Assembly (NCBI GenBank): GCA_016866215.1
Contig: VGNE01000042.1
Coordinates: forward strand, 1-32,948
Length of the DNA stretch: 32,948 nucleotides
Reading direction: 5' to 3'
Origin: Chloroflexota bacterium
GTDB lineage: Bacteria; Chloroflexota; Anaerolineae; Anaerolineales; Villigracilaceae
In this document: positions 1 to 8,116 of the stretch, piece by piece
Layout of the letters: each line of letters starts with the position of its first letter
How positions within the stretch are numbered: position 1 is the stretch's first letter
Made by a program: the position numbers and the translations under genes
Notes under the pieces: generated by a model
What the model saw: only the letters and a program-made list of their open reading frames with translations
What the model was told of the DNA's origin: nothing
Databases searched by the model: none

Positions 1-123
1 CGGCGCGATAAAAGTCTCTTCCGTTTGGGACTCGATTGGCTAAAGTACGCATTGAAGCATTCGCTAGACTTTCAACCCGTCTTCCTTTTTAGCCTGCCAG
101 AGGTACCAACTCATGTACGGTAG
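1..123 (+). CDS. C-terminal tail of a truncated gene, possibly an IS4-like transposase
   Basis: The frame is open from the first base to a TAG at 121-123 and gives about 40 residues. The tail is rich in aromatic and basic residues (SLFRLGLDWLK is its most recognisable stretch). It gives me a weak impression of the C-terminal end of IS4-type transposases, but there is no catalytic residue in view, so this is a guess. The gene starts outside the window. Its stop lies in the same frame as, and just before, the next ORF, which seems to lack a proper 5' end. That would fit a mobile element having cut into the downstream gene. Confidence 0.3.
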   Translation, partial: RRDKSLFRLGLDWLKYALKHSLDFQPVFLFSLPEVPTHVR

Positions 124-156
124 AGAAAAATTGATATCAATTCAACATCGGATATT

Positions 157-879
157 TTGGCGTGTATGGATGTAAAAATAGTGACATGGAAATGCCTGAT
201 TTCCCCGAGTACCTGTATCGGCAGGGAAGCACTAAAAAACCTTATTAATGGTGGGGCACTCATCTATGGAGCACACGGCAGCAATGTAGGAGAAGGTATC
301 GTAGGCCATCCCGGGGATACGGAAGCCTTGCGCATGTTCGTGGCGGGATCGGGCTCCGCCGATACCTGGACCCTGACCCATTTCGACTGGAAGCGGCATC
401 ACGAAGGATATGCCGCTGTGGGGGATCCGATCCCTGTCGAGGAGGAAATTGCAAACGGTCTGGAGTTCTATGCAGGTAGTCACCCGATTCTGTATGTCTC
501 CGAGTACAAACATGCCATGTATCCAACGGCAAATGCCTGCGAAGATTATCCATTTAACGTGGATTTGTTGGGAGGAGCATCATGTAATGTCAATCCTGAA
601 GATTGCGCCAATTCAAAAGCGGGCAGGCTGGAGGTCGGTTTGCCTTATATTTCCCCGGACTATAACGTGGGGGAACTGACGGATCAGTTGATGGACGAAC
701 TACCGGGCTATCCGGGCGAGTATGCCTGGCATGGCATCTCCTTCGAGGATCTCGCTGACGGGAAAGAAATGTTCTGTGGGAGCCTTCCCCCTCGTGGGGA
801 CACGCTTAAGGATGAACCCTGTGCCGGGTCCATGGCTAACATGTGGTTCAACGAGGTCACGAGTCCATATGACCGTTAA
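157..879 (+). CDS. Hypothetical protein, probably N-terminally truncated
   Basis: About 240 residues from a TTG at 157; an ATG at 166 is an alternative. Neither start has a Shine-Dalgarno sequence, and the frame is open back to a stop at 121, so the true 5' end is uncertain or lost. There is no signal peptide. Around residues 74-88 is a W-H-H-E-G cluster, and around 110-128 a VSEYKHAMYP...C stretch. Such His/Glu/Tyr patterns recall Vps62/NPP1-like beta-sandwich proteins, but I cannot assign a family. Several cysteines in the second half suggest a secreted ancestor with disulfides. The gene ends 12 nt before the first zinc-ribbon gene and may be cotranscribed with it. It is either a small unknown protein or the remnant of a larger exported one. 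Confidence 0.5.
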   Translation: MACMDVKIVTWKCLISPSTCIGREALKNLINGGALIYGAHGSNVGEGIVGHPGDTEALRMFVAGSGSADTWTLTHFDWKRHHEGYAAVGDPIPVEEEIANGLEFYAGSHPILYVSEYKHAMYPTANACEDYPFNVDLLGGASCNVNPEDCANSKAGRLEVGLPYISPDYNVGELTDQLMDELPGYPGEYAWHGISFEDLADGKEMFCGSLPPRGDTLKDEPCAGSMANMWFNEVTSPYDR

Positions 880-891
880 TCGGGAGGCGGT

Positions 892-1713
892 ATGAAATGT
901 AAAAATTGCGGTTTTGAGAACAGATCAAGCGTGAAATTTTGCGAGGAGTGCGGGCAGGCGTTGGACAAACCTGCGCGAATTGAGTCTGCGGTTAAACATG
1001 AAGGAATGACCTGCCCCTCTTGCGGGCGCGCCAACCGTCCTGACGTGAAATTCTGCGAGGAATGCGGGCAGGCATTGGACAAACCTGTGCGAGTTGCGTC
1101 TGCGGCTAAGCGTGAAAGCATAGCCTGCCCGTCTTGCGGGCATGCCAATCGCCCCGGGGTGCAATTTTGCGAGGAATGTGGTTCGGTACTTGCCCCCAAA
1201 CAACGGGCAATTTCAGCAAAGAGAGGACAAACGCAAGGCGTGAATCCAATGGCAAATGTGGTTTGCCCCGCCTGCGGACACGGCAACCGCGCAGGCGTGC
1301 AGTTCTGCGAGGAATGTGGCGCCGTATTGACGGGCTCCAGAATGCGCCGCCTGGGGGCAGGTCTGATTTCCTTGAGGCGTAATCCAAAAAAGTTCGCCCT
1401 CGGCGCGCTCGCCTTCGCAATGGCTGTTCTTCTGATCGGTTTCGGAATGGACCGATTGCGATACCCCGTGACCAAAGGCGAAGCCAGGGACATGGCTGGC
1501 GCGATCATTGCGGCTTATTACCCCGAACTGGCGGATGTCGCGCCACGGGTGCAGGAAATTCAAGGAGGCGACGGGGAGCCGTTGCTGTCCTACTCCTATA
1601 CCAAAACTGTCACAGCCCAGACGGAGGACGGAAGCGCATTGCAATTCACCGTGGGAGCGGTCGTGACCGTGGATCGAAAAACAGGGGATGTGGAAGTCAT
1701 CACGATACGATGA
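892..1713 (+). CDS. Membrane protein with four tandem zinc ribbons
   Basis: 273 residues; GGGAGG at 882-887 supports the ATG at 892. Four zinc ribbons of the form CxxC-x10-CxxC lie at C3/C6-C17/C20, C41/C44-C55/C58, C79/C82-C93/C96 and C125/C128-C139/C142. One transmembrane helix follows at about 168-186, then a roughly 85-residue C-terminal domain ending in a beta-rich stretch (FTVGAVVTVDRKTGDVEVI). The predicted topology is ribbons inside and the tail outside. The family resembles DZR-type zinc-ribbon membrane proteins of Chloroflexota; no reaction is known. It heads the array of single-ribbon paralogues, from which it differs by ribbon duplication and a short tail. The function is unknown; a scaffold or metal-dependent anchor is possible. 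Confidence 0.85.
   Translation: MKCKNCGFENRSSVKFCEECGQALDKPARIESAVKHEGMTCPSCGRANRPDVKFCEECGQALDKPVRVASAAKRESIACPSCGHANRPGVQFCEECGSVLAPKQRAISAKRGQTQGVNPMANVVCPACGHGNRAGVQFCEECGAVLTGSRMRRLGAGLISLRRNPKKFALGALAFAMAVLLIGFGMDRLRYPVTKGEARDMAGAIIAAYYPELADVAPRVQEIQGGDGEPLLSYSYTKTVTAQTEDGSALQFTVGAVVTVDRKTGDVEVITIR
898..1320 (+). repeat. Internal tandem repeat encoding four zinc ribbons
   Basis: The first three ribbons are spaced 38 codons (114 bp) apart and the fourth 46 codons from the third. Units 1 and 2 remain strongly similar at DNA level, for example around TGCGGGCAGGCNTTGGACAA near 949 and 1063. This points to recent in-frame duplication rather than convergence. Confidence 0.75.
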
Positions 1714-1765
1714 AAATGACGCGCAGTTTCTTTGCCAGAGTAGAGACCCTGAGAGGAGAACAAAA

Positions 1766-2653
1766 ATGATCTGCCCAAATTGCGAAAATAAAATTCCCGA
1801 TAAAGCCAAAGTCTGCGGATATTGCGGGCATCGGCTGAAGGCGGGCGCGCCGGTTCAAGGAACGATTTCACAGCCAGTCTCTTCCCAACGCGGGATGCCG
1901 GTCTGGGCATGGGGCTTGATCGGGGGGTTGGTTGTATTTTTGGGCATTGCCATCTTTACCGTCGCAAACTTGAGGCGGGAAAATGCGCAAGAGCCCCCTC
2001 CACCCACAACTCTTCCTCCCGCGATCATCCCGACACAGGTGCCTCTCAGGCCGACTGCAACTCCAATCCTCCCGACGCCGACGCCGGAATTATTTAAGGT
2101 ATTTTGGGCATTCGACGATGATATTAGTGAAACCGAGTTTTATGAGTGGGAAAGCGAAGCCTGTTCGTTCAACTTTAATAGCGGTGAATATCACATCGTT
2201 GTTAAAGCGGCTAATTTGCAGTGTTTACCAACAACGGATTTTACTCTTGGAGGAGATGGTTACAGTTACGTTGAGACAAAGGCGAGAATAGTCGAAGAAA
2301 TCGCGTACTGGCAGTATGGTCTAATATTCGGCTTTAATGATATGGACAATTATTATGGCTTTAAAATAGACAGCGATAGAGAATATCGCTTAGAGAGGGA
2401 AATCAACGGAGAGCGTGAGACGCTTATTGACTGGACCCAATCAGGGTATGTGAACTCTGGAAATGCCACCAATGATTTGTATGTTTGGTTTACTGATACC
2501 CAGATAGAGCTATATATCAACGGCCATCGCGTTGACAGCTACTCTGATGATGACAGGATGCCAGCTGGTGGAGTGGGAGTAATCGTGGGGGCATACGAAT
2601 CGCTCAATGTACATGTCGCGTTCGATTTTTTTTCGGCAGGGGAAGGGCCCTGA
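1766..2653 (+). CDS. Zinc-ribbon, single-TM protein with LamG-like ectodomain
   Basis: 295 residues. I chose the ATG at 1766 because GAGAGGAG lies at 1751-1758 and the product then starts MICPNC like its paralogues; a longer in-frame start at 1688 lacks support. Residues 3-20 form a CxxC-x10-CxxC ribbon. A membrane helix covers about 44-69 (GMPVWAWGLIGG onward), followed by a Pro/Thr-rich linker (70-110). The C-terminal 180 residues are a concanavalin/LamG-like or DUF1080-like sandwich, with LIDWTQSGYVNSG and IELYINGHRV as typical strands. The expected orientation is N-in, C-out, displaying a possible glycan-binding domain. The segment 1836-2044 is identical to 4382-4590. Binding specificity is unknown. 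Confidence 0.85.
   Translation: MICPNCENKIPDKAKVCGYCGHRLKAGAPVQGTISQPVSSQRGMPVWAWGLIGGLVVFLGIAIFTVANLRRENAQEPPPPTTLPPAIIPTQVPLRPTATPILPTPTPELFKVFWAFDDDISETEFYEWESEACSFNFNSGEYHIVVKAANLQCLPTTDFTLGGDGYSYVETKARIVEEIAYWQYGLIFGFNDMDNYYGFKIDSDREYRLEREINGERETLIDWTQSGYVNSGNATNDLYVWFTDTQIELYINGHRVDSYSDDDRMPAGGVGVIVGAYESLNVHVAFDFFSAGEGP
1836..2044 (+). repeat. Perfect 209-bp direct repeat, copy 1
   Basis: Identical base for base to 4382-4590. It covers the end of the ribbon, the whole membrane helix and the proline-rich linker up to ATCATCCCGACACAGGTGCCT... where the two genes part abruptly. The flanking ribbon codons differ at several bases, so the identity is confined to this block. Confidence 0.95.
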
Positions 2654-2720
2654 GGCGGGCATGTGTTTAAAGCGGAGTGTCAAAACAAAGATAGGAATCA
2701 CACAGTAAAGGAAACCCATC

Positions 2721-4265
2721 ATGAAATGCCCCAATTGTTCCAATGAAGTCCCCGATAAAGCCAAAGTATGCGGATATTGCGGGCATAGGCTGAAGGCGGG
2801 TGCGCCTGAGACCGAGCCGAAGAAGACCAGAGAGCCTGTTACTACCACAGGCGCAGCGCCGGGCTGGAGGTGGGGAATCATTGCAGGCGTAGGCGCAATT
2901 TTTTGCCTTGTTATCCTTGCGGGCGCGGGTTACTGGCTGCTGAAGTTCAGGGTACCGGCGGCCAATGAGCCTCCTGCTCCAAGCTTCGCGCCAACGCTGC
3001 CTTTGCCTCCCGCGGCTGTCCAATCAACGCAACAAACGAATTGCAACGAAGCCCGGTTTATTTCCGATTTGAACGTCCCTGACGGCACCACCATGACGCC
3101 GGGCCAGACTTTCACCAAATCCTGGCGAATTAAAAACGTTGGGACCTGCACCTGGACGACGGATTACCTTATTGTTTTCTCGGGCGGCGACCGAATAACA
3201 GGAGCGGACAGTCAGGCCCTGCCGGGCAACGTCGCGCCAGGGCAAGAAGTGGATCTATCCGTTAATTTGGTCGCGCCTGAAGCCGAGGGAAATTATATTG
3301 GGGAATATGCGCTACAGGATGCCAATGGGGGAAAATTCATCGGCTTTACTGTGAATATAAGCGTCCAAGCCGCACCGACGAGACAGATCGCATACGTTGC
3401 CGAGCTGGACGGCAAGAGGGCAATTTATACTGTGAACCTGAACGGCAGTGATATACGATTGTTGGCAGAAGATGGGGACGATCCCGATTGGTCGTCGGAT
3501 GGAAGAAAGGTCGCGTTTGTATCCTACCGTGACGGAGGGCATATCTATGTCATGGATGCAGATGGCAATAACCAGACGCGGCTTACGAATAATTCCAGTT
3601 ACGATATTTGTCCGGCTTGGTCGCCGGATGGTCAACAAATCGCATTTGTGTCAGGCCGCAATGGCAATTATGAGATATACATCGTCAACGCGGATGGCAG
3701 CGGCGAGAGACGCATCACCAACAACCCTGGCAACGATGATTGTCCCCTCTGGTCGCCGGATGGAGAACAGCTCTTATTTGTCTCTGACCGCGATGGTAAT
3801 TATGAGATCTATGTTGCGAACGTCAACGGGAGCGGTGACATGCGATTAACCAAAGATCCTAAAAGCGACGGATCGCCCGACTGGTCGCCAGATGGACGGA
3901 AAATCGTTTTTGCATCCGACCGCGATGGAAATAATGAAATCTATACGATGAATGTAGATGGCACGGCTGTGACCCGGTTGACGAATAACACCGGTTCCAA
4001 TTTTTACCCTCGATGGACGCCGGATGGTCAGAGGATTGTGTTTGTATCAGATGGTGTTTATGTAATGAATGCGGATGGCAGTAACCGGATGCACTATTAC
4101 ACTGGCGGTGTCCCAAAGTGGTCGCCGGACGGGGACTATATTGCATTTGTTGATAATCATATCGGTGAACTGAACCTATATGATCTCTACGCGGCGAATT
4201 CCGATGGAAGTAATCAGGTGCTTTTGGTGGAAAATGTCTCCTACCAATTTGATTGGTCGCCATAA
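2721..4265 (+). CDS. Zinc-ribbon, single-TM protein with FW domain and PD40 beta-propeller
   Basis: 514 residues; AAAGGA at 2707-2712 precedes the ATG. The ribbon is at C3/C6-C17/C20 and the membrane helix at about 51-73. After a Pro-rich linker comes an FW-type (NBR1-like Ig) domain at about 108-212, with the hallmark SWRIKNVGTCTWT. The rest is a TolB/PD40 propeller with repeated WSPDG-type corners (WSSDGRK, WSPDGQQ, WSPDGEQ, WSPDGRK, WTPDGQR, WSPDGDY). The protein stops at FDWSP, which suggests the last blade is closed by velcro pairing. Blades are about 41 residues each and also similar in DNA. It is probably an extracytoplasmic binding scaffold; no catalytic site is visible. It lies 67 nt after the previous paralogue. 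Confidence 0.88.
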   Translation: MKCPNCSNEVPDKAKVCGYCGHRLKAGAPETEPKKTREPVTTTGAAPGWRWGIIAGVGAIFCLVILAGAGYWLLKFRVPAANEPPAPSFAPTLPLPPAAVQSTQQTNCNEARFISDLNVPDGTTMTPGQTFTKSWRIKNVGTCTWTTDYLIVFSGGDRITGADSQALPGNVAPGQEVDLSVNLVAPEAEGNYIGEYALQDANGGKFIGFTVNISVQAAPTRQIAYVAELDGKRAIYTVNLNGSDIRLLAEDGDDPDWSSDGRKVAFVSYRDGGHIYVMDADGNNQTRLTNNSSYDICPAWSPDGQQIAFVSGRNGNYEIYIVNADGSGERRITNNPGNDDCPLWSPDGEQLLFVSDRDGNYEIYVANVNGSGDMRLTKDPKSDGSPDWSPDGRKIVFASDRDGNNEIYTMNVDGTAVTRLTNNTGSNFYPRWTPDGQRIVFVSDGVYVMNADGSNRMHYYTGGVPKWSPDGDYIAFVDNHIGELNLYDLYAANSDGSNQVLLVENVSYQFDWSP

Positions 4266-4311
4266 ATCAATGCGGTGAAATAGCAGTATCCGATATTCAA
4301 GGAGTCAAATC

Positions 4312-5553
4312 ATGAACTGCCCGAATTGCGAAAACAAAATCCCGGATAAAGCCAAAGTATGCGGATATTGCGGATATCGGTTGAAGGCGGGCGCGCCGGT
4401 TCAAGGAACGATTTCACAGCCAGTCTCTTCCCAACGCGGGATGCCGGTCTGGGCATGGGGCTTGATCGGGGGGTTGGTTGTATTTTTGGGCATTGCCATC
4501 TTTACCGTCGCAAACTTGAGGCGGGAAAATGCGCAAGAGCCCCCTCCACCCACAACTCTTCCTCCCGCGATCATCCCGACACAGGTGCCTTCGCTTACGC
4601 CATTATCCCCAACAAATACTCAAGAAACAGACACGCAGACCCAGTATCAGAGCGTCTTTACTCTCGAAGACGACGATTGGATAAACTGGAGCGCAGGAAA
4701 AATTATCGAGCCCTATCTATTGCTTATGACAAGTGACGGCGAGATGTATATCTTTGATCTGGAAAGCCTGGATCAGGGAGGGCACGCAATTATTAACACA
4801 TCGCAAGCGGTCAACGAACTAAATTTCGGCGATTATCAAGGTATGATCGCCACAAAAGGCTATCTATATCTATTTGGACGTCATGGGCTGATGACGCTAG
4901 ATGTAGGCGATCCGCTAAGACCGAGAATCCTGAATCAGGAAAAAACGGGGTGGATAAGTAATATGACATCGGCAGGGAATCTGCTAATCGGCGTTGGGCA
5001 TGGCTCAATTTATTTTTATTCTTTGAATAATCCGACATCCCCAAAACTGATCGAGGTTTATTCGGCTGATGACGAAAAAGAGTATTTTTGGTCCGTGGCT
5101 GTATCCCAAAATGTGCTCTATACTGGCAGTTGGTGGGAGGACAATAATCCCGAACGCGACATGCTCGGGATTTTCGATATCACCGATCCCAACAGCCCAA
5201 TCGAAATTGGCAGCCAATGGATTGAAGAGACTCCCTATCATCTGATCGTGAAAAACGATCTGCTTATTGCTTGCGGAGATCTGCCAATTACGCTATGGGA
5301 TATTTCCGACCCACGTCACCCTGAAAAACTGGATAAAACTTATGACTATTCTGGACGCCTCTGTTTTTTTGATGACAACCGGATATTGCTGGGCTATGGA
5401 AACGCGCTGCGCCTGACTGGTCAGTCTCTTGATTATTTTGCGATACCTGATGTAGACACCGGCTCCGGTTCGCCGTTTTTCGGCGACGCATCCGAAAATT
5501 GGGCGGTCTTGCCTGGGGATGGGAAGGCTGAAATCATGCGTCGTTTACCCTAA
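4312..5553 (+). CDS. Zinc-ribbon, single-TM protein with LVIVD-like propeller
   Basis: 413 residues; AAGGAG at 4299-4304 precedes the ATG. The ribbon (C3/C6-C17/C20), membrane helix (about 44-69) and linker are nearly identical to those of the 1766 gene, including the 209-bp perfect repeat. After residue ~95 the sequence is unrelated: about 300 residues of LVIVD-type repeats with corners such as TLDVGDPLRPRIL, IFDITDPNSPIEI and LWDISDPRHPEKL. This predicts an extracytoplasmic beta-propeller. No enzymatic motif is visible. The gene looks like a chimera of a shared anchor and a foreign ectodomain. Confidence 0.86.
   Translation: MNCPNCENKIPDKAKVCGYCGYRLKAGAPVQGTISQPVSSQRGMPVWAWGLIGGLVVFLGIAIFTVANLRRENAQEPPPPTTLPPAIIPTQVPSLTPLSPTNTQETDTQTQYQSVFTLEDDDWINWSAGKIIEPYLLLMTSDGEMYIFDLESLDQGGHAIINTSQAVNELNFGDYQGMIATKGYLYLFGRHGLMTLDVGDPLRPRILNQEKTGWISNMTSAGNLLIGVGHGSIYFYSLNNPTSPKLIEVYSADDEKEYFWSVAVSQNVLYTGSWWEDNNPERDMLGIFDITDPNSPIEIGSQWIEETPYHLIVKNDLLIACGDLPITLWDISDPRHPEKLDKTYDYSGRLCFFDDNRILLGYGNALRLTGQSLDYFAIPDVDTGSGSPFFGDASENWAVLPGDGKAEIMRRLP
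4382..4590 (+). repeat. Perfect 209-bp direct repeat, copy 2
   Basis: Second copy of the block at 1836-2044. It encodes the same anchor helix and linker in frame. The downstream boundary falls at the start of the ectodomain, where copy 1 continues CTCAGG and copy 2 TCGCTT. Confidence 0.95.
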
Positions 5554-5570
5554 CAAGGAAGGACATGATT

Positions 5571-6488
5571 ATGCAATGCACCAACTGCGGGAATGAAATC
5601 CCCGATAAAGCCAAAGTCTGCGGTCACTGCGGGCATCGGCTAAAAGCAGATCCAGGGATCCCTGCTCAATCAACGGTGGTAAAACAAGGCATACCAAACT
5701 GGGCTTGGGGATTGGGAGGTGCCCTGGTTACATTAATCGCTGGAATCATCCTCGTGTGGGCGGGTTCGTCTAGCGAAAACCGTTCGGCAATTATACAAAA
5801 CCAGCCCGATTTTACAGCGATGTCTTCTTCGACTCAGATACCCACAATAGCAAGCCGCGCATCCATTCAAAGCTGCGAGAATAGATTTCTATATCGGCCG
5901 TTTATTGGAAAGTTCTCATTGTTGAACGTCTTCGACCACGAATATCCCACACAAGAACGGAATAAATCCATTGTGACTTGGCGGGGGGAAAGAAGCGCAA
6001 ATATAGGATATGATGGCCATCCAGGTATTGATTGGGAAATGCCCGAAGGAACTCCTTTGCTTTCCGCAGCGGAGGGATGGATTAGGTTTGCTGGAGAGGA
6101 AGTTGAGCCTGAATGCCTTGGAAGTCCTCCATGCCCGGCAGGAAATGTCCCTTGCAAGACTGTGGTGAAACGAGTTATTGTAGACACCCGCTCCCACGGA
6201 AAAGATGGCGCCTGGGAGGGATATTTGATAGCCTATTACCATCTGAGCCAAATTGATGTGGCGGAAGACCAAAAAGTTCAAGTGGGACAGCAAATCGGTT
6301 TATCAGGACAGACCGGTTGCGCCTCATCACCACATCTCCATTTTCAAGTCTTGTGGTCTGATGCAAATGGGAACTGGAGCGCCGTTGATCCGTTTGGATG
6401 GAGTGGCAGCGTTGACATACCTTTGGATCCATGGGCGTCAAACCCATCCGGAGCAGTAAGTTGTTATCTTTGGCTGGATGAGCCTTAG
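5571..6488 (+). CDS. Zinc-ribbon, single-TM M23 (LytM-type) metallopeptidase
   Basis: 305 residues. The ATG at 5571 is preferred over the ATG at 5565 because AAGGAAGG (5555-5562) is 8 nt away and the product then begins MQCTNC like its paralogues. The ribbon is at C3/C6-C17/C20 and the helix at about 44-64 (NWAWGLGGALV onward). The C-terminal half is an M23 peptidase: zinc ligands H150 and D154 in GHPGIDW, H224 in YYHLS, and H255/H257 in HLHF, all present, so it should be active. M23 enzymes usually cut peptidoglycan cross-bridges or other glycyl bonds outside the cell. Two cysteine-bearing inserts (about 182-195) may form a disulfide. It lies 17 nt after the LVIVD-like gene. Confidence 0.9.
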   Translation: MQCTNCGNEIPDKAKVCGHCGHRLKADPGIPAQSTVVKQGIPNWAWGLGGALVTLIAGIILVWAGSSSENRSAIIQNQPDFTAMSSSTQIPTIASRASIQSCENRFLYRPFIGKFSLLNVFDHEYPTQERNKSIVTWRGERSANIGYDGHPGIDWEMPEGTPLLSAAEGWIRFAGEEVEPECLGSPPCPAGNVPCKTVVKRVIVDTRSHGKDGAWEGYLIAYYHLSQIDVAEDQKVQVGQQIGLSGQTGCASSPHLHFQVLWSDANGNWSAVDPFGWSGSVDIPLDPWASNPSGAVSCYLWLDEP

Positions 6489-6542
6489 GAATTGCGTCGT
6501 GCGATTCCACGCGACGCCCAGCCAATTATCAAGGAGAAAACC

Positions 6543-7457
6543 ATGGTCTGCCCAAATTGTGAAAACAAGATTCCCGATAAAGCCAAAGTGTGCGGATACT
6601 GCGGTTATAAATTCAAACACGCTGGAGTGACCCAACCCCGAAATACGCCTGCGACTCGCAGTATCCTAGGCTGGGCCTGGGGCTTGGGAGGCGCATTGAT
6701 CGTAGTGATTATTGGAGCAATCCTGTTGTTTCCGGAATTATCGCTTACACCTTCCGCGGAGGAGGCGCCAGCCCTGCCAGCGGCGCAACCAGAACCGACA
6801 ACGATAAGTTTTCCCCCGCCCACATCCATCCCTCCGACAGAATCGCCAACGACACCCACGACCGACACATCATCCGACATAAAGGTACTGATCGCGGATC
6901 ATTTTGACGATCCGACCAGCGGTTGGACCACAGGCAGCGATAAAAACCACGACGGCAATTATTATGACGGAGGGTATCGTCTTTCCGTATTCGGCACTGA
7001 TTCGTGGCATTACATACAATATTTACAAGGCGATTCCCGGGGTAACTTCAATGATTTCACCTTGGAATTTGACCTGTCTTCAACATCAAACAGCGGTTTT
7101 GGCGGGATTGTTTTCCGCCGTTCGGCCCCGTATAATTTTTACGTATTCGAAGTTTCGCCGAACGGCTCTTTCGCCCTGCACCGGGCAGATCAAGCAAGTA
7201 GAGAAACATGGAAAATATTGATCGATTGGACGTCTTCGAGACTCATCGCTAGGGGACAGACGCCGAATGTTCTCAAAGTATCCGTTTCTGGAGAAACGAT
7301 TTCCCTTTATGTCAACGGTCAGTTTCTAACATCCGCGCAGGATGGGACGTATGACAGCGGGTGGATCGGACTCTTTGCCGCGCGAACCCCGGATGACTAC
7401 AGGAACGGAATCACAGCGGGTTATTTCTTCGACAACGTAAGAATGACTTATCCTTGA
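6543..7457 (+). CDS. Zinc-ribbon, single-TM protein with second LamG-like ectodomain
   Basis: 304 residues; AAGGAG at 6531-6536 precedes the ATG at 6543, and the product starts MVCPNC. The ribbon is at C3/C6-C17/C20, the membrane helix at about 40-62 (LGWAWGLGGAL onward), then a long Pro/Thr-rich linker (about 68-112). The ectodomain is a LamG/DUF1080-like sandwich, homologous to that of the 1766 gene (shared LIDWTSS, LYVNGQ and final GYFFDNV-type strand) but diverged. It is probably the last gene of the array; no clear terminator follows. Confidence 0.86.
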   Translation: MVCPNCENKIPDKAKVCGYCGYKFKHAGVTQPRNTPATRSILGWAWGLGGALIVVIIGAILLFPELSLTPSAEEAPALPAAQPEPTTISFPPPTSIPPTESPTTPTTDTSSDIKVLIADHFDDPTSGWTTGSDKNHDGNYYDGGYRLSVFGTDSWHYIQYLQGDSRGNFNDFTLEFDLSSTSNSGFGGIVFRRSAPYNFYVFEVSPNGSFALHRADQASRETWKILIDWTSSRLIARGQTPNVLKVSVSGETISLYVNGQFLTSAQDGTYDSGWIGLFAARTPDDYRNGITAGYFFDNVRMTYP

Positions 7458-7600
7458 TTCACGTTCGAGATTTGATCTCTTACGATAATGTTGCGGGCAG
7501 TGAGAACCTGCCCATAAAATTACCGGGTCAAACCCGCATCACCCTCACCGATACCGGCTCACTGATCTCCTCCAACTCCAACGTCCGAAAACAGCATCGG

Positions 7601-7849
7601 TCATATTCTAGCGGATATGCCAGCCCTCTTGAGGTCTCGGTAATTCCACAGCACCTGCCAGATGCGCAGCGCGGCTTCGATTTGGATCTTGAACGACATT
7701 TTGGATTTGCCAAATTTGCGGTCGGCAAAATAGGTGGGTGACTCGCCGATTCTGAATTCGAGACAGTGGGTCAGGTAGATCATTTCGACGAGGAAGATGT
7801 ATCCGCTGGAATGGATGCGTTCGAAGGGAATCTGTTTCAGGGTCTCCGC
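7601..7849 (-). pseudogene. C-terminal fragment of a polyprenol-phosphate mannosyltransferase-like glycosyltransferase
   Basis: About 82 codons remain. They match the end of Dpm1/GT2 family enzymes: RETLKQIPFERI, SSGYIFLVEM, then ESPTYFADRKFGKSKMS and the closing LWNYRDLKR. The nucleotide-binding and DxD part of the enzyme (about two thirds of a usual ~240 residues) is missing. The fragment joins in a different frame onto a nucleotidyltransferase head at about 7842-7852, so it is not expressed as an enzyme. Confidence 0.72.
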
Positions 7850-7967
7850 GCGCCTGTGAGCCGAACATGATGACCTTAACGGGCTGTCCCAACTCTTTGG
7901 TCAGCCGTTCACGGACCTCTCTTGCAAGTCTGAGCGCACGCACTCGCGGGCGGAATTTCCTGTTCAT
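7842..7967 (-). pseudogene. N-terminal fragment of a minimal nucleotidyltransferase
   Basis: From an ATG at 7967 the frame gives about 42 residues ending in VKVIMFGSQARGD, the beta-strand and GS motif of MNT/KNTase-fold proteins. The DxD residues that should follow are lost where the sequence switches to a glycosyltransferase tail in another frame. A TATAAT lies 6 nt upstream of the ATG (7974-7979 on this strand), so the fragment kept its promoter, apparently leaderless. No HEPN partner is present. Confidence 0.65.
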
Positions 7968-8033
7968 ACGTTTATTATAATCCTACTTACCCGCTTTACT
8001 TTTTTGTTGTTCTTATTAACTCGCCTTACGCAA

Positions 8034-8103
8034 TGTCATTCTGAGCGTAGTGAAGAATCTCTGAGATTATTGTAGAGACCCTTCGCTGTCGCTCAGGGTG
8101 ACA
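8034..8103. repeat. Dispersed imperfect inverted repeat (MITE- or REP-like)
   Basis: The left arm TGTCAttCTGAGCG..GAAG..TCTCT pairs with the right arm AGAGA..CTTC..CGCTCAGggTGACA to form a long hairpin. The preceding CTTACGCAATGTCATTCT and the 22-nt block at 8074-8095 recur near the right edge of the window (32641-32658 and 32731-32752). It lies at the 3' end of lexA and carries no gene. Confidence 0.75.
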
Positions 8104-8116
8104 TGAATGTGAGTTA

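Follow-up and report, generated by a model that had tools for sequence, protein, structure and literature searches.

How two nearby genes with unrelated ectodomains came to hold one identical internal stretch is the question raised by contig VGNE01000042.1 of a Chloroflexota bacterium (family Villigracilaceae; assembly GCA_016866215.1). The window analysed here is this whole contig (C42; 32,948 bp), and the genome comprises 128 contigs and is 97% complete. Five consecutive genes of the window, termed A, N, B, M and L (Table 1), follow one plan: an N-terminal zinc ribbon, a transmembrane segment (TM) with a W.WG motif, a linker rich in proline and threonine (P/T-rich) and a C-terminal ectodomain. 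TM and linker were assigned by eye. Positions 1836–2044 in A and 4382–4590 in B are the same at 209 of 209 bases; they form a direct repeat, and identity ends abruptly on both sides. The repeat was probably left behind by recent non-allelic recombination between two ribbon-anchor paralogues that had already diverged, a reading that takes in both a two-sided patch and a one-sided form of the event.

The repeat is real and is not due to chance. Its copies occupy matching codons of A and B, from the second base of codon 24 to the end of codon 93. Over the first 279 nt, from the start codon to the end of the tract, A and B differ at nine positions, all of them within the first 70 nt, and random placement of these nine would give such a pattern with P = 2.6e-6. 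Nine differences in 70 nt followed by none in 209 bound a sharp patch of identity within diverged paralogues, the pattern by which gene conversion is recognised. The initial annotation had described two copies identical at every base, third positions included, with differing ribbon codons just upstream and unrelated ectodomains downstream, and in all of this it was correct. It had also taken the repeat to mark the boundary between anchor and ectodomain, with the break exactly at the end of the linker. There is indeed a 5′ joint between ribbon and TM. It comes directly after position 1835, the first base of codon 24, where the ninth and final difference (CTG/TTG) is synonymous. The 3′ joint follows codon 93, whereas the linker, rich in P, T, S and Q, ends only near residue 108 (A) or 112 (B). 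The 3′ joint is therefore mid-linker, about 15–19 codons short of the linker's end, and the repeated unit comprises only part of the anchor, namely the TM and the first half of the P/T-rich linker. A search of the 3.74-Mb genome at the DNA level found no third copy. As to inverted repeats around the tract, one exact 9-nt pair (1748–1756/2042–2050) flanks the anchor of A, with one arm across the 3′ joint; it was not reported around B, where a different 10-nt pair at 90% is present. By our own estimate the 9-nt pair is at about chance level.

Identity of this kind could in principle be kept by selection without recombination, for example if both proteins needed the same TM and linker for the same membrane partner. 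The invariance of W47, W49 and G50 of the TM motif across the array would suit such an explanation. However, the synonymous choices are identical as well: the 66 degenerate codons compared in the tract agree without exception, where 21 would be expected from the codon usage of the window (log10 P = -34). In addition, N, M and L do not have this TM, and no signal of RNA structure was found. We give selection alone next to no credence, and it was rejected because the synonymous codons are identical. The RNA fold of the tract is not unusual (z -0.48) and no 13-mer of the tract recurs elsewhere in the window, so that a constraint at the DNA level is not indicated. A DNA-level function of the tract was likewise rejected, given the absence of a fold signal and of further copies.

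The comparison of ribbons with TM/linker regions separates A and B from every other pair of the array. Conservation in the nine other pairs lies in the ribbon, which has 12–23 differences in 72 nt (17–32%), and the TM/linker has diverged at 49–62% of aligned bases. A and B show the reverse, with 9/72 differences (12%) in the ribbon and 0/204 in the TM/linker. Duplication of the whole anchor, ribbon included, after which one ribbon was overwritten or changed fast, might produce this picture, and the ribbons are alike enough to perhaps recombine: pairs other than A–B share ribbon/anchor homology of 35–89 bp at 75–90% identity. Such a duplication would require a second event, and the ribbons of A and B are not copies of any other in the array, since every pair differs at 9–23 of 72 nt. 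Further anchor matches beyond these five genes were not found in the genome, either at E ≤ 0.001 or in a profile search at 1e-8. A fast-changing ribbon is also at odds with the nine other pairs, in which no part has changed more slowly. Codons at amino acid-identical ribbon sites are shared at 14 of 21 sites between A and B and at 120 of 181 summed over the whole array; sharing between A and B is thus no higher than array-wide, and the two are unlike young duplicates of a whole anchor. We regard this explanation as very improbable.

The ectodomains do not follow the anchors. Those of A and B do not match each other by blastp at E ≤ 1, whereas those of A and L are 32–34% identical (E about 1e-10; 32% over 91 amino acids by blastp), and A aligns to L across residues 1–273 at 33%. 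One TM/linker therefore carries two ectodomain families (A and B), and one ectodomain family stands on two TM/linkers (A and L). As A has the ectodomain type of L and the TM/linker of B, the histories of TM/linker and ectodomain must differ in one or more of these genes. As a whole, the array joins a constant N-terminal region to unrelated C-terminal domains. Because the ribbon and ectodomain of A resemble those of L, we lean weakly towards copying from B to A. The AlphaFold models, each made from a single sequence, had mean predicted local distance difference test scores (pLDDT) of 36.2 for the A ectodomain and 48.8 for that of B. Foldseek matches of the B model included WD40, BamB and designed propellers with a TM-score of 0.2–0.33; as the model is of low confidence these matches are only a hint, and the B ectodomain is perhaps a beta-propeller.

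Zero differences in 209 bases put the divergence of the two copies at 1.4% or less (95%). The nearest genome by gyrB among the 57 genomes of the genus searched is G231 (97% at the amino acid level). Over lexA, corA, SHOCT1 and gyrB it differs from the present genome at 339 of 4686 bases (7.2%), and 1177 of 1445 codons at amino acid-identical sites are shared. At that age, 66 identical codons out of 66 would have P = 1.3e-6. Provided that the clocks are alike, exchange or the last homogenisation thus took place after the split from G231. Together with ribbons nearly as diverged between A and B as in the other pairs, and with an identical TM/linker, this gives good support to the proposal of recent recombination made in the initial annotation. 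DNA of the tract was detected in two of 152 genomes of the family (five candidates scored per genome), namely the present one and G019 (47 bp at 79%). A search with the whole array gave matches in 93 of the 152, the present genome included; among the matches listed these were mostly to the propeller part of N and to the ribbons, and outside the present genome none of those listed covers the tract (two candidates scored per genome). A pattern scan of genome contigs matched 10 stretches, none of them a relative, and a second scan gave 20 loci (Lachnospiraceae, other Clostridia and Bacteroidetes type), mainly as ribbon matches, which were not used further. Plasmid records gave no match.

An identical repeat in a draft genome of 128 contigs, probably assembled from a metagenome, also calls for consideration of an assembly artefact, in which similar copies were collapsed to one consensus or falsely joined at the repeat. 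The repeat of 209 bp is longer than the k-mers usually used for short reads, which counts for such an error. With two direct copies around a unique block, however, the observed order is the only linear path that uses all the pieces, and the alternative needs a free circle; a wrong order is thus hardly possible. The flanking ribbons, with only nine differences, stayed separate. Collapse of a few single-nucleotide polymorphisms would weaken the word 'perfect', but the contrast with 49–62% in the other pairs would remain. We consider an artefact improbable.

Under the recombination reading, strand exchange would start in the ribbon/anchor homology common to the five genes, the TM/linker of one gene would be copied into the neighbouring paralogue, and the exchange would be resolved in the P/T-rich linker, where A and B today have no long homology. 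A gene conversion-like patch of this kind between two pre-existing genes has, in our judgement, slightly better than an even chance. Several observations weigh against the recombination reading, of which this patch is one form. The 90-nt stretches of A and B that follow the tract have a longest common exact word of 7 nt, so that homology flanks the tract on the 5′ side (the ribbon) and, as seen today, amounts to a 7-nt word at most on the 3′ side; if the conversion was two-sided, its 3′ homology has since disappeared or was never required. There is only one clean case. Among the other arrays compared (G400, G122, G043, G144, G025 and G245), a selection and not a complete set, no pair has a long perfect tract over unrelated ectodomains. 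In G122, which belongs to another family and offers a weaker parallel, the contig ends within gene a of three anchor genes, while b and c appear by eye to encode two kinds of type-I solute-binding protein. 'Unrelated' is there valid for blastp only, and a distant relation between the ectodomains is possible.

The 3′ joint without clear homology favours a one-sided event, which is the main rival of the patch within the recombination reading. It would be homology-facilitated illegitimate recombination or an import from another strain, in which the copied end of ribbon and anchor held the exchange in place and a foreign or displaced ectodomain was joined on within the linker. One of the two genes would then be a new fusion and not an old gene with a patch. 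Today the joint does look like one homologous and one non-homologous end; later divergence or replacement could have given the same appearance. The G+C content of the A and B ectodomains (0.450 and 0.465) is somewhat below that of the N, M and L ectodomains (0.488–0.502), the window (0.504) and the tract (0.594), which would also fit a foreign origin. These contrasts are mild, however: the ribbons of A and B are low too (0.458 and 0.444), and the value of the tract is probably raised by its Pro, Gly and Ala codons. The portion of PMC5361080 on which we draw proposes the same mechanism for effector displacement in Vibrio, but gives its frequency in three genera as several orders of magnitude below that of homologous exchange. 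We hold the one-sided event to be possible but rather unlikely.

Whichever form of recombination is preferred, the junction of codons 93 and 94 in A and B is a precise, testable joint. Judging by geometry, and not as an observed event, recombination between the direct copies, which are separated by 2,546 bp, could either remove the block from the A ectodomain through N to the B ribbon, and so fuse the ribbon of A to the ectodomain of B, or duplicate that block. Non-allelic recombination between paralogues is a well-known process. If our reading is true, this one locus shows an uncultured bacterium re-anchoring unrelated surface domains, with the membrane part copied between neighbours and the tips remaining different. 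This suggests that the ribbon/TM cassette and the ectodomain should be annotated as separately inherited units.

The initial annotation also saw in the repeat a mechanism for diversifying the array. One perfect tract does support this; as an array-wide process, diversification by swapping would draw on that clean case and on the weaker parallel in G122. A profile of the anchor matched 17 of 400 genomes of the order at E ≤ 1e-8 (the present one included; 13 candidates scored per genome), and four genomes, the present one (G000), G400, G122 and G245, have two or more matches on one contig. In G122, the match between b and c reaches 93.5% along 62 bp of the ribbon and 94% along 34 bp of the TM, and that between a and b 77% over about 160 bp; the range for the three genes is 77–94% over 34–162 bp of ribbon/TM. 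Their ectodomains have no mutual blastp match at E ≤ 1e-3. The array (L064; G122:C58:1-8000) appears by eye to carry three solute-binding types of ectodomain, for phosphonate, BMP and branched-chain amino acids. It may be an older case of the same process. Two genes of G144, on different contigs, have similar anchors and similar ectodomains (89% over 411 nt, with one of the genes truncated where its contig stops), which is plain duplication.

In five arrays, ribbon codons are shared at 239 of 370 sites within arrays and 693 of 1364 between them, where the codon usage of the window, applied to all arrays, predicts 0.43 and 0.42; as pairs within an array are not independent, these figures are descriptive only. 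A wider hypothesis is that ribbon-anchor arrays of the order are a general platform for surface display. The ribbon/TM cassette, with its higher nucleotide likeness within than between arrays, would then be a recombination handle that re-anchors unrelated ectodomains, and a variable slot between rplL and lexA would be where whole arrays are exchanged en bloc. We regard this as rather unlikely. A narrow search of the open-access literature found nothing on ribbon-anchored ectodomain arrays in this bacterial group.

The slot itself was studied by comparison of the SHOCT1 neighbourhoods of 15 relatives. Array genes are absent from all 15 stretches (tblastn, E ≤ 1e-4). In 12 of them both rplL and lexA lie within the stretch, so that the interval was read whole, without an array gene; it measures 70–588 bp in seven relatives and 6.7–7.1 kb in five. 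In the remaining three, the stretch ends about 4 kb past lexA (G124) or 92 bp past it (G411), or lexA was not found (G062). The other four relatives with large intervals share a portion of the 6.7-kb cluster of G231, mainly the first 1.7 kb among the matches listed; by eye the G231 block encodes a secreted, vWA-like protein and two small ubiquitin-like proteins that resemble each other. In the present genome rplL lies on contig C94 and is followed by an open frame of 857 amino acids that runs to near the contig end, and C42 starts inside an accessory block. The array, which lies between the contig start and lexA (1–8116), appears to fill the variable rplL–lexA slot. C94 and C42 would be neighbours on synteny only, and the slot is possibly a site of exchange for accessory blocks.

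Other features surround the array. The intergenic stretch 7990–8116 beside lexA belongs to a dispersed repeat family with 27 matches in the present genome (itself included), at least 47 in G231 (40 of 65 candidates scored), two in G028 and three in G124. It is possibly an element like the repetitive extragenic palindromic sequences or miniature inverted-repeat transposable elements (REP/MITE), expanded in this species pair. An open reading frame (ORF) at the edge of the array (7608–7967, minus strand, 119 amino acids) has no Pfam match; by eye we take it to resemble the end of a family 2 glycosyltransferase (GT2) acting on polyprenol phosphate, and it is perhaps a gene remnant. A tRNA search found none in the window. 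LamG-type genes near gyrB in sister genomes were considered and rejected as array members; by eye they are lipoprotein-like, and they lie in another slot. Multi-ribbon genes like Z1, at the head of the array, adjoin single-ribbon anchor genes in five other loci (L057, L065, L066, L067 and L068), a recurring pair.

Table 1. Genes of the ribbon-anchor array and parts of genes A and B, with positions in the window
Feature	Positions	Strand	Description
Z1	892–1713	+	Array head; four zinc ribbons (DZR 9.6e-31, 4 stretches); TM-like stretch by eye
Gene A	1766–2653	+	Ribbon (codons 1–24; Pfam Zn_Ribbon_1 8.4e-7), TM, P/T-rich linker, LamG-like ectodomain (Laminin_G_3 9.5e-4, below cut-off)
A ribbon codons outside the identical tract	1766–1835	+	9 differences from B
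Repeat copy 1	1836–2044	+	Within A; TM and first half of linker
Gene N	2721–4265	+	Ribbon, own TM/linker, N_BRCA1_IG domain and PD40 propeller; between the two repeat copies
Gene B	4312–5553	+	Ribbon, TM/linker of A, ectodomain unrelated to that of A; LVIVD E 0.0096, below cut-off
B ribbon codons outside the identical tract	4312–4381	+	
Repeat copy 2	4382–4590	+	Within B
Gene M	5571–6488	+	Ribbon, TM, Peptidase_M23 ectodomain (Pfam)
Gene L	6543–7457	+	Ribbon, own TM/linker, LamG-like ectodomain (weak, below cut-off) matching that of A

Diversity-generating retroelements and invertase shufflons diversify surface proteins by means of repeats, and in this they resemble the array. They differ in that the array has direct, perfect copies that show neither mutagenesis nor inversion. 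No reverse transcriptase or recombinase family was found by Pfam among 25 scanned ORFs, a part of those in the window. A retroelement was rejected because no reverse transcriptase occurs among the scanned ORFs and the copies are perfect. Concerted evolution has been reported in prokaryotes, according to the part of PMC6053082 cited here. With ectopic gene conversion of bacterial paralogues the array has in common a recent identity between paralogues of one genome; the difference is that the ectodomains are here unrelated and that only an internal stretch is in common. In Rhs proteins, core and tip are evolutionarily decoupled by recombination, and in tip displacement a constant 5′ region is joined to unrelated 3′ regions, as far as the cited section of PMC2935791 describes it. 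The latter is like the array. A Pfam scan of the six array proteins (E ≤ 0.01) detected no domain of Rhs, CdiA or toxin type, and no search was directed at orphan tips. Unlike that of Rhs, the identical unit of the array is internal, comprising the TM and half of the linker; upstream of it the genes diverged earlier, and downstream their sequences are unrelated. For the displacement of effectors of the type VI secretion system in Vibrio, the proposal is that conserved sequence upstream supplies the homologous end and the other end joins without homology (PMC5361080, same portion). The proteins are different ones, and in the array the second end lies in P/T-rich linker codons, where one-sidedness is only putative.

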